Source of the DNA: Singulisphaera sp.
Lineage (GTDB): Bacteria > Planctomycetota > Planctomycetia > Isosphaerales > Isosphaeraceae
Direction of reading: 5' to 3'
Length of the DNA: 44,828 nt
NCBI GenBank assembly: GCA_027451445.1
Contig: DAIDJG010000188.1
Span: forward strand, 1-44,828
Shown here: in pieces, positions 16,911 to 22,003 of the stretch
Position numbering within the stretch: the stretch's first letter is position 1
Layout of the letters: each line of letters opens with the position of its first letter
The notes under the pieces: generated by a model
The model's database searches: none
Told to the model about the DNA's origin: nothing
What the model saw: only the letters and a program-made list of their open reading frames with translations
Program-made: the position numbers and the translations under genes

Positions 16911-17000
16911 AGGGATTCGCGATCGGCGCCGACCGGGAACTCATCGCGAACTGGAAATCTATCAAGTCAACCGCGTTCGATTCTTTTGAAAGGGCTGTTC

Positions 17001-18068
17001 ATGACCCCACGCCCATTTCGGACCAACCTTGTCGCCGGAATTCTTGCTGGCGGGATCCTCGCCTTGGCGATGGGCGGCAGTTCGATAGCGAAAGACGAGT
17101 TGCAGCCAGATCGCCTGAACTTTGGGGTCGTGCACCTGGGTGCCCGGGTCCAGGGAAGTGTTCGTGCCTTCGTGGATCCGAAGGAGATTGCGGCATCCAA
17201 GGTCAAGGTCGTCGCTCCTGACTTCGTAACCGTCGATTCCGTGAACCAGGGCGTCCAGGAATACGGCGGTGCGCGCAATGCGAGGGGGTACTGCGACATC
17301 GCCATCACGGTCGACACGCGCAACGTTGGCAAGTTTTCAATGCCGATGGTGATGTCGCTGGGCGAGCACCGTATCGAGGTGCCGGTGAGTGCCGAGGTTC
17401 GACCGCGCAACAAGGCACAGGCTCGCGTCTTGGTCGTCGACACTCCGTTTCAACGTTTCTCGACGAATGATGCGTCGCTCTTCGATCCCTGGCTGAAACT
17501 CGTCGAGCGCGGCGGTTTCGATGTCGAGTATCGCGAAATTCGGTTGGCGGATTCCGCGCTGAAAGGGATCGATCTTGCGCAGTTCGACAGTATTCTGCTC
17601 GGTGAGTTGGGGATCATCCGGTTGGACAGCGACGATATCGCCGCGCTTCGTCGATACGCGGAAAACGGAGGGCGCGTCATCCTGACCGCAAATCATTTCT
17701 TCATGGGCACGGTGCCTAAGGCCAACAAAGTTCTTCTGCAATACGGTCTGGAAATCCAAGATACCGAGAATCCCGTTCAGGGCGCAATTGAGGTCCGCGC
17801 GCCTCACATCATTCCTTGTCCCCTGACCGATGGGGTCACGTTGTTGAGTTTTCATCGTCCGTCACCGGCCGTGGTGATCGACCAGGACCGGACAATGGTT
17901 CTGGTCGGTTCTCCGAACAAGGCCGACGAGCACTATGTCGCCATTGCCCTCGCGGGGAAGGGACAAATCGTGTCACTCGGCGTATCCCTTTGGTGGTCGT
18001 GGGTCGGCAAGGCCGACAACGCGATTCTGTTGGAGAACCTCCTTCGGCGCAAACCGCGGGCGGATTGA
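17001..18068 (+). CDS. Secreted protein: DUF1573-like domain plus amidotransferase-like domain
   Basis: A 355-residue protein with a signal peptide at about 1-30 (hydrophobic stretch LVAGILAGGILALAMGGS). Residues about 38-130 start with DRLNFGVVHLGARVQGSV, the pattern of DUF1573/Ig-like domains. Residues about 140-345 look like a class I glutamine-amidotransferase-like (DUF4350-like) fold: ARVLVVDTPFQ, FDSILLGELG, LRRYAENGGRVILTANHFF. No catalytic cysteine is visible after the 'LRRYAENGG' strand, so enzyme activity is unlikely. The start at 17001 has AAGGG 7 bases upstream. It lies 90 bases after the oxidoreductase gene. The role is unknown. Confidence 0.65.
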   Translation: MTPRPFRTNLVAGILAGGILALAMGGSSIAKDELQPDRLNFGVVHLGARVQGSVRAFVDPKEIAASKVKVVAPDFVTVDSVNQGVQEYGGARNARGYCDIAITVDTRNVGKFSMPMVMSLGEHRIEVPVSAEVRPRNKAQARVLVVDTPFQRFSTNDASLFDPWLKLVERGGFDVEYREIRLADSALKGIDLAQFDSILLGELGIIRLDSDDIAALRRYAENGGRVILTANHFFMGTVPKANKVLLQYGLEIQDTENPVQGAIEVRAPHIIPCPLTDGVTLLSFHRPSPAVVIDQDRTMVLVGSPNKADEHYVAIALAGKGQIVSLGVSLWWSWVGKADNAILLENLLRRKPRAD

Positions 18069-18175
18069 GCGGCGGCTCGCCGGAGCGGGTAAAGACTCTC
18101 TGAGCTACGGCATGTTGGCTCAATCCGCCTACGAAAAGAGCCGGCCCAACGTCGGTTGACGATGGCCGGCCCAAC
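18059..18175. repeat. Inverted and direct repeats after the amidotransferase-like gene
   Basis: GGCGGATTGAGC at 18059-18070 is the exact reverse complement of 18118-18129 (12 bp, 47-base loop); the left arm spans the gene's TGA stop. GCCGGCCCAAC occurs as a direct repeat at 18140-18150 and 18165-18175. The 12-bp stem could help end the transcript. Confidence 0.6.
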
Positions 18176-18200
18176 ATTCGCGAACACGATAAAAACCCCT

Positions 18201-18377
18201 TGGCGCCTAACACTTCGTGTGTCCCAACGAGCGGGATGGGTGGCCGGGGCAAAGGAGAGCGCAGCTCCACGTGCCCCGGTGGGCCGCGAGACGCTTCCGG
18301 GGCACGTCGGCCTTCCGGCCTCCTCTGCCCCGGCCACCCCAGGGATCCCACATTCACACACAATCTGTTGGGCGCCA
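18201..18377. repeat. Long imperfect palindrome with nested hairpins (MITE-like)
   Basis: The ends are TGGCGCC at 18201-18207 and its complement GGCGCCA at 18371-18377. The outer arms, about 56-58 bases, pair imperfectly; the inner part GGTGGCCGGGGCA-AGGAG is nearly perfect. Inside are two more hairpins: ACGTGCCCCGG (18269-18279) pairs with 18297-18307, and GGCC-TTCC-GGCC at 18309-18320. The folded form would be a cloverleaf. It lies between two convergent genes and could terminate both. No ORF is present, so if it is mobile it is non-autonomous. Confidence 0.7.
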
Positions 18378-18429
18378 GGAAAAAACCTCGACCAGGGTCG
18401 CATGCTTGCCCTACGGCCTGCGACCGCGG

Positions 18430-21400
18430 TTACCTCTTCTTCAGCGTCTGCACATACTCGACGACGTCAATCAACTCTTCCGCCGTCATCGTTTTTTGCA
18501 GGTCCGCCGGCATCAGCGAGATCGGCTGCTTCTTGATCTCGTCGATCTCCGATTTCTTCAGCGTCCGGGAAATAGCGTCGCTTCCTCGGAGAACGAGCTC
18601 GGTCGGAGTCTCAGACACTTTAATCCCGCTGATCACATTGCCGTCTGTGGTGGACGCGACCCAGGTCTCAAAGTTGTGGCTGATGCCGGCCGAGGGGAAG
18701 AGGATCGACTCGAAGAAGGCTTCACGGCTCAGCTTGGAGCCGATTTCAGAAAGGTCGGGACCCACCTGCTTGCCTTCGCCGTTGACGGTGTGGCACGTGT
18801 TGCACTTGGCGAGTCCAGTGAAGACCGCTTTCCCCTTGGTCGCGTTCCCCTTGGACTTGAGCAGCACGGCCAGGGGCGGCAGCGGTTTCTCGTTGCGCGC
18901 GGGCGGCGGCGGGAACAGCGTCTCGATTTCGCGGTTGAGACGCTCGTCGCGGAACGGCGTGCTCTGCAATGCGAACGCGGCGGCCTGCGTGAGTTCCGGC
19001 GCCAGGGCTTTATCCCGGACCCGCCGCAGCAGCTCGCGTGCGCCTTGGGGTGTCTTTCCAAGTGCCTTGGCGGCTTCCTGGGCGACACCTGTCGGTACGC
19101 TCTTCTCGTCGATCAGCGCTGTCAGGAGCGTCGTGGACCGTTGATCGGACGCGTTCCCGAGTGCTCGGGCGAGTCCCGTCGCGGATTCGACGTCCGAACC
19201 CTGAAGAACGCCCTTCAACAGCTTTTGCAGACCCCGGTCGAGGAGGACCTTCGCGGCACCGACGCCCGTTTCACTCTCCGGCTGGGTCGCCGCCAGTGCC
19301 ACGAGCCCCGGATACCGAGACTGGATCTGGAACCGATTGACAAGCGCAACGTAGGTTGGCGTGCCCTTGGTGCGATCGAGGACCTTCTCAAGCGCGGCGA
19401 GCTTCTCAGGCTGCTGGGAGACGTTGCCCCCCTCGAGCCGGTTCACCGCCTCCGAGATGATCAGGGCCTGCCGCGCGTCATCGCCGCTCGTGGTGTGAAA
19501 GGCGAGTTGCTCCATAACGCCTTGCTTCTTGGCGCCGGTCAGGAAGTCGAAGGCGCGGAAATAGCGAGGGAGTTTCTCGGCAGGGGTTGCGGGATTGCCG
19601 ATGATCTCCGCGAGCAGCTCGGGCGTTTGCAAGGCGCGCGACCGCCAGATGATGTCTCGGCCCGCTTTGGTCGAGACCGCGTTCGGCACGGCTTTCAGAT
19701 ACGCCGCGAGGCATTCATCCCAGTGCTTGGCCGCACCGATGCCCAGTGCTTCGAGATACCAACGGTCGTCGCCTCGGTACTGCTGCGCGAGCGCGGTCCA
19801 CGCGGTGGCGGGCGTGGCGTCTTCGTGCAACGCGATCGCCAACTCCCGGCGCACCTTGGCAGACTCCGCGGCGACGTCTCGAGGAGCCCACCGCCAAAGG
19901 GGAGTCAATTCGCGGCCCGCGCGGATCGCGACAACCTTGAGGTCGTCCTGATTGCCTCGCACCGCCGCGTCGAGGTACTCGCTGCTCCTTCCGGGCAGCT
20001 TGCTCAGGAGCCATAACGCGCGGGCGCGGAACCTCGGGTTCGGATCTTCGCGGAACATCTTCGCGAGGGCGGGTTCGGCCTTCGTCCCAAAGTCATGAAG
20101 GGCAGTCCAGGCGAGGTAGCGCGTCTCCTGATTTGGACTCTTGAGCCCCGCGATCGCGCCCTCGACCGTCGTGACGTCGAGCTTTGGCACGGCGTACTTG
20201 GCGCCGGGCGGTGCAACGCGGAAGATGCGGCCCTTGTCGATGTCGCCCATGGCGTGCCCGCCGACGCCCGGATCGTACCAGTCGGCCACGATCAACGAGC
20301 CGTCGGGGGCGACGCAAACATCGCTGGGACGGAACCACTTGTCGCGGGTCCCTTCAAGGATATTCTCAATCTCTGCCGAGTAGCCAGCGCCTGTCTCTTT
20401 CACGGGGTAGGCCCGGCAGACATTCGGCCCCGCATCGCAGTGAATCACCTGGTTGCGGAAGACCTGGGGCAGCAGCGTCCCTTCGTAGACACAGATACCC
20501 GTCGGCGATCCCCCGCCCGTCTGCAGCAAGTTGGGCACGACGCCCGGATCGTTTTGATGCCAGTGCCGTAGCGGGATCTCGGTCTCAATGTTCGTGCGAG
20601 GGGATTGCCAGCCCGCACCTGTGAGCTCGTCGACGTATCCGTAGTTGCCAAACTCCATCACGTAGTTGATTCGAACGCCTCGGTTGCCATCGTCGTCGTT
20701 GTCCGACTGCCACATGGTTCCGAACGAGTCGACGGCCACCTCGTAGATATTGCGGAAGTTATGGGCGAGGGTTTCGAACCCAGTGCCGTCGAGGTTGCAG
20801 CGGAAGACCATCCCCTGGCGATAGGGCTTGCCGCCGTCATTGACCGTGTTGCCCGTGCGGTCGACGATCGGCTTGCCGTCCTTATCGTGAACGGCCTTGC
20901 CGGAGTTGCCGACGTTCCAGTAGAGCTTGCCGTCAGGTCCAAAAACGAATGCGTGGGTCGAGTGGTCGTGCTGCGGTTGCCCCACCTTGCTGAAGAGAAC
21001 GTCTTTCTTGTCTGCCTTGCCGTCGCCGTTTTCGTCGGTGAAGATAAAAACGTTCGGGGCGACCGAGACGATGACCTTGTTGCCGAGCACGCAAATGCCG
21101 AGCGCGCTATCGATATCGCGCCCCTGGTAGAAGACGGTTTGCTTGTCCGCGACCCCGTCCTGATTGGTGTCTTCGAGGATCAGGATTCGATCGCCTTCGG
21201 GTCGTTGCCCGTTGCGACCGCGATAGTTCACGACTTCGCAGACCCAGACGCGGCCCTTGTGGTCGACGTCGATATCGGCCGGGCTCAGGACCATCGGCTC
21301 ACCGGCGAACAGGGTCGCCTCGAGTCCGGTGGCGACATCCAGGCCCGCGACCGCGTTGTCGAGCTCGTGCGATGCGCTCGTTGGGGCCGCCGCATTCGCA

Positions 21401-21924
21401 AAACGCGCGGGTGGCTTGTGATCAAACGCGAGGAACTGAACCGTGCTGCCACACCCCTGGTCCGTGCCTCCGTCGTCAAGGCCGGCCCTTGCGATGAATC
21501 GGGTATAGCCGGCGGGAAGGTCATAGGCGATAACCGAGGGCGAGTGCGTCCCGATGCCGTAGCTTACTGGCTTGCCATCAATTCGTAAAACGCCACCGGA
21601 TGCATTGGCATCGACATGAACTTTGCCGTGGCCGGCTGAGGCGGTCTTCCACTTCAGCTCGGTCAGCTTCTTCTCACCCGACGGGCCAACGAGTCGCGGC
21701 TCGGCCCAGTCTGCCCAGTCGCAACCGATTCCGTCGCCCGCATCCGTCACGACGAGCCACAGTTCTTTGGCTCCTGTGATATCGACATCAACGTTGACAG
21801 CATGACCCGGGGTGCTGGGAGAGACTAACCGGCTGTCGAACAGCGGTTTGGGATCGGCCGCCCTGGCCTCGATGGCTCCCAACGTCAGCGACAGCAACGA
21901 GACGACAAATAGCCTACGCAGCAT
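18430..21924 (-). CDS. PVC-type membrane-bound dehydrogenase / HEAT / cytochrome c protein with NPCBM domain
   Basis: A 1164-residue exported protein. A signal peptide covers about 1-22. Residues about 25-170 form an NPCBM-like carbohydrate-binding domain (ELWLVVTDAGDGIGCDWADW, ending STVQFLAFD). Residues about 205-590 are the PVC-type 'membrane-bound dehydrogenase' propeller with calcium-loop-like DTNQDGVAD and DENGDGKAD. HEAT-like helical repeats follow. A haem c site CNTCH lies near 1040, with a later methionine in SLMPADL as possible axial ligand. It is likely to pass electrons from sugar oxidation to the respiratory chain; this is inference from the domain order. The start at 21924 has GGGAG 8-9 bases upstream. 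Confidence 0.9.
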   Translation of the reverse strand: MLRRLFVVSLLSLTLGAIEARAADPKPLFDSRLVSPSTPGHAVNVDVDITGAKELWLVVTDAGDGIGCDWADWAEPRLVGPSGEKKLTELKWKTASAGHGKVHVDANASGGVLRIDGKPVSYGIGTHSPSVIAYDLPAGYTRFIARAGLDDGGTDQGCGSTVQFLAFDHKPPARFANAAAPTSASHELDNAVAGLDVATGLEATLFAGEPMVLSPADIDVDHKGRVWVCEVVNYRGRNGQRPEGDRILILEDTNQDGVADKQTVFYQGRDIDSALGICVLGNKVIVSVAPNVFIFTDENGDGKADKKDVLFSKVGQPQHDHSTHAFVFGPDGKLYWNVGNSGKAVHDKDGKPIVDRTGNTVNDGGKPYRQGMVFRCNLDGTGFETLAHNFRNIYEVAVDSFGTMWQSDNDDDGNRGVRINYVMEFGNYGYVDELTGAGWQSPRTNIETEIPLRHWHQNDPGVVPNLLQTGGGSPTGICVYEGTLLPQVFRNQVIHCDAGPNVCRAYPVKETGAGYSAEIENILEGTRDKWFRPSDVCVAPDGSLIVADWYDPGVGGHAMGDIDKGRIFRVAPPGAKYAVPKLDVTTVEGAIAGLKSPNQETRYLAWTALHDFGTKAEPALAKMFREDPNPRFRARALWLLSKLPGRSSEYLDAAVRGNQDDLKVVAIRAGRELTPLWRWAPRDVAAESAKVRRELAIALHEDATPATAWTALAQQYRGDDRWYLEALGIGAAKHWDECLAAYLKAVPNAVSTKAGRDIIWRSRALQTPELLAEIIGNPATPAEKLPRYFRAFDFLTGAKKQGVMEQLAFHTTSGDDARQALIISEAVNRLEGGNVSQQPEKLAALEKVLDRTKGTPTYVALVNRFQIQSRYPGLVALAATQPESETGVGAAKVLLDRGLQKLLKGVLQGSDVESATGLARALGNASDQRSTTLLTALIDEKSVPTGVAQEAAKALGKTPQGARELLRRVRDKALAPELTQAAAFALQSTPFRDERLNREIETLFPPPPARNEKPLPPLAVLLKSKGNATKGKAVFTGLAKCNTCHTVNGEGKQVGPDLSEIGSKLSREAFFESILFPSAGISHNFETWVASTTDGNVISGIKVSETPTELVLRGSDAISRTLKKSEIDEIKKQPISLMPADLQKTMTAEELIDVVEYVQTLKKR

Positions 21925-22003
21925 CAGCGATCTCTCCCGCACCTATGGTTCCGAGTCGGCAATCGGTTCTTCGATGATAACACCCATGCAGCATGAAATG
22001 ACA

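Follow-up and report, generated by a model that had tools for sequence, protein, structure and literature searches.

A REP-type inverted doublet as the putative core of a multi-copy MITE in a Singulisphaera genome

Introduction

A REP carries its GT[AG]G foot next to a hairpin, and REPs with a "double foot", GT[AG]G...C[TC]AC, are also on record (PMC6006769, 2018; this and the other papers named here are cited from excerpts). Hairpin and clover folds have been proposed for REPINs (REPs paired in inverted orientation), whose dissemination is called unresolved in the excerpted text (Bertels and Rainey, 2011; PMC3116915). In Pseudomonas the genes of RAYTs, the tyrosine transposases associated with REPs, are surrounded by REP units linked to unrelated stem-loops (PMC3733652, 2013). 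The excerpts of a paper on Isosphaeraceae genomes mention no such repeat (PMC5352709).

Here we describe a palindromic element from a window of 44,828 nucleotides (the whole stretch of DNA analysed) of a draft genome of Singulisphaera sp., in which two non-autonomous mobile elements are probably combined, a REP doublet lying inside a MITE. It resembles the REPs and REPINs of RAYTs, as excerpted, in its two inverted hairpins with GTGG at the 5' side and CCAC at the 3' side and in its hairpin and clover folds (PMC3116915; PMC6006769), so that the word cloverleaf chosen in the earlier note on this DNA was apt, and in the presence of a RAYT-like gene flanked by REPs in the same genome. It differs from them in that the doublet lies in the middle of an element with inverted-repeat ends and 8-bp target duplications, together with which it spreads, and in that the RAYT-like gene of this genome is interrupted by an in-frame stop. 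With the bacterial MITEs RUP, NEMIS, ERIC and Nezha, as far as the excerpts describe them (PMC3733652), it shares a short, geneless sequence, inverted ends, target duplications and many copies, but here the core appears as a recognisable second mobile element. The nearest precedent that we met is that of the Pseudomonas joints, where according to the same excerpts REPs are linked to unrelated palindromes and hundreds of such structures occur in the genomes; the units there are, however, degenerate GTAG-1 units flanking RAYT genes, whereas here a GTGG doublet lies inside MITEs with several unlike ends. No description of REP doublets inside MITEs was found in searches of an open-access library, most subscription journals lying outside it. 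A phylum in which the MITEs carrying REP doublets have ten or more inverted ends unlike one another would offer a natural test of hitchhiking, of the choice of landing sites by RAYTs and of the birth of MITEs and, if the reading is true, a second route of spread would let REPINs multiply past the decay of their own RAYT.

Results

Anatomy and borders of the window copy

The earlier note had described some 177 bases between convergent genes, with ends that match, arms that are long but imperfect, and hairpins nested inside them, and all of these features are present. The palindrome at 18201-18377 is real and far beyond chance: its predicted fold has an energy of -111.9 kcal/mol (z -8.02), and none of 200 shuffles was equally stable. 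The inverted repeat 18238-18257 / 18320-18339, which is 95% complementary, was the sole long one reported by the repeat finder. While the palindrome itself stands, its borders do not; they are set by the target duplications and lie 2 bases further outward on each side, giving an element of 181 bp at 18199-18379 (CTTGGCGCC...GGCGCCAGG). The 8-mers bordering it, AAAAACCC (18191-18198) and AAAAAACC (18380-18387), are identical at seven of eight bases. The 7-base end TGGCGCC is not unusual by itself, with 11 occurrences in the window against 13.7 expected. Convergent open frames lie on either side (16986-18068, plus strand; 18430-21942, minus strand). The first encodes a protein of 360 residues whose DUF4350 match is below threshold, and the second a DUF7133/NPCBM/cytochrome c protein of 1170 residues; open frames overlapping the repeat are no evidence of genes. 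The features of the window copy are as follows.

18191..18198, no strand: left target-site duplication AAAAACCC, 7 of 8 bases as in the right copy
18199..18379, plus strand: whole MITE copy of family A, 181 bp (alignment of 39 copies, target duplications)
18199..18221, plus strand: left terminal inverted repeat, 18 of 23 bases matching the right one in the window copy
18238..18339, no strand: core, an inverted doublet of two GTGG-footed hairpins, putative REPIN-like module (core-pattern scans)
18238..18279, plus strand: REP 1, foot GGGTGG and hairpin CCGGGGCA..TGCCCCGG with a small hairpin nested in it (GGTGG-hairpin scan)
18280..18296, no strand: spacer (loop) of 17 nt between the REPs (sequence)
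18297..18339, minus strand: REP 2, foot GGGTGG and hairpin with a nested GGCC-loop-GGCC (GGTGG-hairpin scan)
18357..18379, minus strand: right terminal inverted repeat (terminal-pattern counts, comparison of ends)
18380..18387, no strand: right target-site duplication AAAAAACC, 7 of 8 bases as in the left copy

A multi-copy mobile repeat

When a 201-bp query was compared with its own 10.9-Mb draft genome at least 78 matches were obtained, of which 40, the window included, were near full length at 90-100% identity and the remaining 38 were reverse-strand echoes of the palindrome; these counts are lower bounds, 40 of 104 first-look candidates having been scored. The terminal inverted repeat pattern occurs at 115 sites in this genome (57 + 58), against three (1 + 2) for the reversed control. 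An exact 8-bp target duplication was found in 24 of the 41 repeats with both flanks, compared with 0.5% (0.0046) for swapped flanks, and exact duplications of every other length from 4 to 11 were found in none of the 41. Per-position matches across the 8 bp ran from 34 to 37 of 41, and the central bases of the duplication are rich in A and T (0.83-0.88 A/T at positions 3-6). The 41 repeats comprise 39 with a window-type core, which align with a mean column identity of 95%, and two kept outside that alignment, L051 (where the inner end was taken) and L084 (which has another core). The family-A terminal repeat is combined with a different core in L082 as well as in L084, and shortened copies exist in L053, L062 and L068. 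Being short (181 bp), non-coding and multi-copy, with terminal inverted repeats and 8-bp target duplications, family A is a non-autonomous mobile repeat, as the earlier note had suggested.

In 98 relatives the 177-bp element gave partial matches only, in three genomes, and among the 44 remaining genomes of the bacterial family the terminal pattern was found at 38 sites compared with 88 for the control (sums over the genomes), some of the 38 being a related end (CTGGCGCTCGCCAGTTGGTGCG and its kin). G010 and G106 (the genome of the Singulisphaera sp. GP187 locus L215) yield identical Y1 matches at identical coordinates, so that this bacterial family is very probably the Isosphaeraceae. The exact 24-base end had no match among the named genomes, a set that may lack the records of this genome or of very close ones. 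From these comparisons family A looks confined to its own species among those searched, and looks recent. Contigs of the genome end inside a family-A copy in L056, L058, L059, L061, L063, L067, L069 and L070, and also in L073, L076-L079, L083, L087 and L088; the repeat therefore breaks the assembly, and its copy number is probably underestimated.

The autonomous-partner search covered two transposase families, PF01609 (10 loci) and PF12762 (2 loci), in the genome itself, and no family-A end was seen there at up to 6 mismatches, nor was an autonomous element with such ends found among those of the 115 end sites that were listed; two single family-A end sites were present at these 12 loci at 7 mismatches.

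The core as a REP doublet

A scan of the whole window for GGTGG hairpins gave four matches, all with 9-bp stems. Two of these are the halves of the core, and in these alone GGGTGG adjoins the stem directly. In both halves the foot lies within the distance of 0-2 nt from the hairpin that characterises the GT[AG]G feet of REPs, the 9-bp stems have one mismatch, and the loops of 18-19 bases hold nested hairpins, the whole forming an inverted REP pair (18238-18279, plus strand; 18297-18339, minus strand) with a 17-nt spacer. Judged by this anatomy, which is that of a REPIN, the core at 18238-18339 is a second, apparently separate element of REP/REPIN type at the centre of the repeat, and it had been missed by the earlier note.

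The core pattern GGGTGGCYGGGG..CCCCRGCCACCC, with fixed 12-base arms in which GGGTGGCYGGGG is the outer arm of the core and has its complement on the far side, was found in 12 of 45 genomes of the bacterial family (this one included), the reversed control giving none. In named genomes at least 114 stretches carry it, and 76 of the 80 titles listed are Planctomycetota by name. The remaining four titles belong to Streptomyces, Phycicoccus, a member of the Frankiaceae and a Nealsonbacteria bin. By eye the Streptomyces and Phycicoccus matches (Actinomycetota; L186, L239) look like chance, and the match in the Frankiaceae bin (L194) retains paired arms. The bin titled Candidatus Nealsonbacteria (L244) has by eye a planctomycete-type core, perhaps through contamination or transfer. 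The core stems vary widely, with 170 distinct stem segments in 282 parsed arms. Stems differ between families, and the fraction of bases paired, 0.52 against 0.41 in shuffled sequences, is a moderate excess that is not relied upon.

RAYT-like genes and the core

Using a profile built from eight RAYT-like proteins, a match at E <= 1e-15 was found in 17 of 45 genomes of the bacterial family; two relatives (from L309 and L347), whose genes have GGGTGG hairpins at their flanks, exceed the NCBIfam REP_Tyr_transpos cut-off of 80, with 116 and 106 bits. The core and the RAYT match occur together in 10 of the 45 genomes, the core alone in two, RAYT alone in seven and neither in 26 (Fisher p 2.7e-4, kinship ignored). 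The genome of the window has a single such match, at G000:C564:25236-25751, with one in-frame TAG. For the part following this stop the RAYT model gives 64.5 bits, over its positions 51-146 (of 146), which is below the whole-protein cut-off (80) but far above its IS200 score (12.6). The gene is bordered on both sides, in inverted orientation, by REPs matching REP 2 of the window at 46 and 45 of the 48 bases compared (18292-18339); the close match is limited to REP 2, REP 1 agreeing with the RAYT-flanking REP at only 30 of 48. No family-A end was found within 6 mismatches in this 3.5-kb RAYT locus, so the REPs found there do not belong to MITE copies. The unit made up of the RAYT-like gene and its REPs (L384:1051-2350) lies in turn between inverted arms, giving nested palindromes around the gene, and these arms recur around another core family of the same genome (L151, L158, L162, L164).

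Around 72 de-duplicated Y1 loci GGGTGG was the commonest hexamer beside perfect 8-bp hairpins (8 loci), and the runner-up (7 loci) is the GGGTGG site shifted by one. A GTGG hairpin is lacking near the majority of Y1 genes, and those that have one are mainly RAYT-like; at loci of other transposases weak 6-bp matches were seen in 2 of 12. The hairpin CTGGGGTCTCGTCTTCGAGACCCCGG occurs in the core of another genome, G011, and also flanks a RAYT-like gene there (L399).

Cores inside unlike inverted repeats

Within the genome of the window a similar core is found with other outer sequences in three groups (L154/L156; L151/L158/L162/L164; L152/L159/L160). Across 153 distinct cores (all having 40 bp of flank or more, 8 duplicates of 161 having been dropped), 30 had inverted-repeat flanks at a score of at least 24. 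Among 1530 control positions at the same loci, drawn from coding and intergenic DNA alike, the figure was 1.2%; about four fifths of the cores have no such flanks at score 24. Measured against swapped flanks, 29 of the 153 cores lay above the 99th percentile. For the 29 cores at a score of at least 25 the distances from core to end on the two sides are correlated (rho 0.63, median difference 6), and by eye at least ten of these 29 inverted repeats are mutually unlike, examples being AGAGCCTATCCGA, GAGGCTGTTTCAAA, CTAGTGCTTTGTCA, CTAAGCAGGTCCGCAGAA, CTACAGCGGTTTAC and CTTAGTGGTCCATTTCA. Several of the flanking repeats start with C-TA and finish with TA-G, which suggests TA-duplicating transposases. 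In L152, L159 and L160 a separate repeat has CTAAGCAGGTCCGCAGAA ends around a GTGG core, and its ends are compatible with a TA duplication.

Proposed origin and alternative explanations

The outer element would be a MITE of 181 bp with inverted ends of about 23 bp (CCTGGCGCCCAACAGWTYGTGCG) and no gene, whose copies, ends and duplications are described above; it would be copied by a DDE-type transposase which prefers AT-rich targets and leaves 8-bp duplications. The inner REP doublet, with its inverted hairpins and GTGG feet, belongs to the type of sequence which RAYT tyrosine (HUH) transposases presumably nick in single-stranded form and spread, and an enzyme of the RAYT type may once have made or moved the core. 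The likely history would start with the spread of GTGG REPs and doublets among planctomycetes by RAYTs. One such doublet would then have entered the middle of a palindromic MITE or been captured there, and the MITE transposase would have multiplied the composite dozens of times. Other MITEs of the phylum seemingly took the same course, and an alternative order, in which MITE ends grew around the core, may be envisaged. No host function is needed to explain the element. It is possible, though we propose it only tentatively, that in Planctomycetota REPINs ride as the standard core of MITEs of many transposases, which would be a second route of spread enabling multiplication after RAYT decay, and that the hairpin tip of a palindromic MITE is a preferred landing place of RAYTs.

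The earlier note had also considered a structured RNA or a bidirectional terminator, and it is conceivable that the element, spread by transposition, is kept by the host as a bidirectional terminator or mRNA-stabilising hairpin selected for its RNA fold. We consider this improbable. The fold is very strong, the window copy lies between convergent genes and none of the 39 copies is inside a called gene; on the other hand, no terminator-like site (a GC stem followed by a T run) was detected in 17900-18700 by a scan admitting loops of 3-8 only, and some copies are shortened (L053, L062, L068). The gaps holding the 39 copies, as judged with a home-made codon-usage gene caller, are tandem in 13 cases, convergent in 7, divergent in 7 and without an assigned orientation in 12, so that 20 of the 27 assigned gaps are tandem or divergent; convergent gaps, 7 of 27, compare with none in a comparison set of 10 gaps (9 tandem, 1 divergent), numbers which are too few to tell (Fisher p 0.16). 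Among the 39 copies only one of 43 predicted pairs shows a double change, with a covariation term of +0.16, a test of low power since the copies are about 95% alike, and no Rfam family reached its gathering score in the window. A terminator or a conserved RNA is thus not supported, the tests being weak ones. The earlier note had set against its own readings the case of an element unique in the genome and relatives and lacking compensatory changes in its stems: uniqueness does not hold, there being dozens of copies, and compensatory changes are indeed nearly absent, within the low power just mentioned.

We give very little credence to either of two further explanations. If the whole were a single element, namely a long palindromic REPIN moved by RAYT alone with the outer repeats as extended hairpin arms, the RAYT-like gene flanked by matching REPs would be accounted for, as would the fact that outer arms and core make one long palindrome. 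The exact 8-bp duplications at the outer ends of 24 of 41 repeats largely refute this. IS200-like Y1 enzymes are not known to make 8-bp target duplications. The occurrence of the same terminal repeat with a different core (L082, L084), and of similar cores with unrelated outer repeats, likewise argues against a single element. Nor does it seem at all probable that the core is merely a GC-rich palindrome arising repeatedly, its presence in many MITEs being due to convergence instead of descent from RAYT repeats. The wide variation of the stems (170 distinct segments in 282 arms) would fit such convergence, as would the two chance-like Actinomycetota matches (L186, L239), the Frankiaceae-bin match L194 keeping its paired arms; the fixed 12-base outer arms with no hit of the reversed pattern in 45 genomes, the strong phylum bias among the matches listed and the hairpins flanking RAYT genes all speak against it. 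The reading as a REP doublet inside a MITE is preferred.

Empty sites and related repeats

In a same-genus genome the neighbouring gene is present at 68% identity, and its 4-kb locus has no core arm within one mismatch; since there is no alignment past the gene, this locus provides no true empty site. The joined flanks of the 39 copies, when compared with all DNA collected, gave seven spanning matches, five of which were the copies' own or overlapping loci. The other two were a weak 52-base match (L004/L025) and a match of L086 to L002 with 74% identity over 133 columns. The latter is suggestive of an unoccupied copy of a repeat, although the target duplication of L086 is poor (4 of 8). This further repeat, TCACTTAGTATACGTTAG ... 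TTCGAAAGAAAAA, is found at L002:2472-2602 and in L086 around position 2065, at 74% identity, and one of the two places holds a family-A copy. A MITE of the AGTGCTTTGTCA type lacking the core is present at one place across 8 genomes; it was considered as an empty precursor, and by eye it reads like an asymmetric deletion instead.

A longer relative of about 795 bp is present in two copies (L051:2075-2869 and L060:2071-2865) with three end sites and family-A ends; it has two core-like palindromes, one near each end, and no gene visible by eye. The related end CTGGCGCTCGCCAGTTGGTGCG and its kin have an inverted counterpart at a distance of 70-135 bp in L095, L100, L116 and L119, which belong to other genera of the bacterial family.
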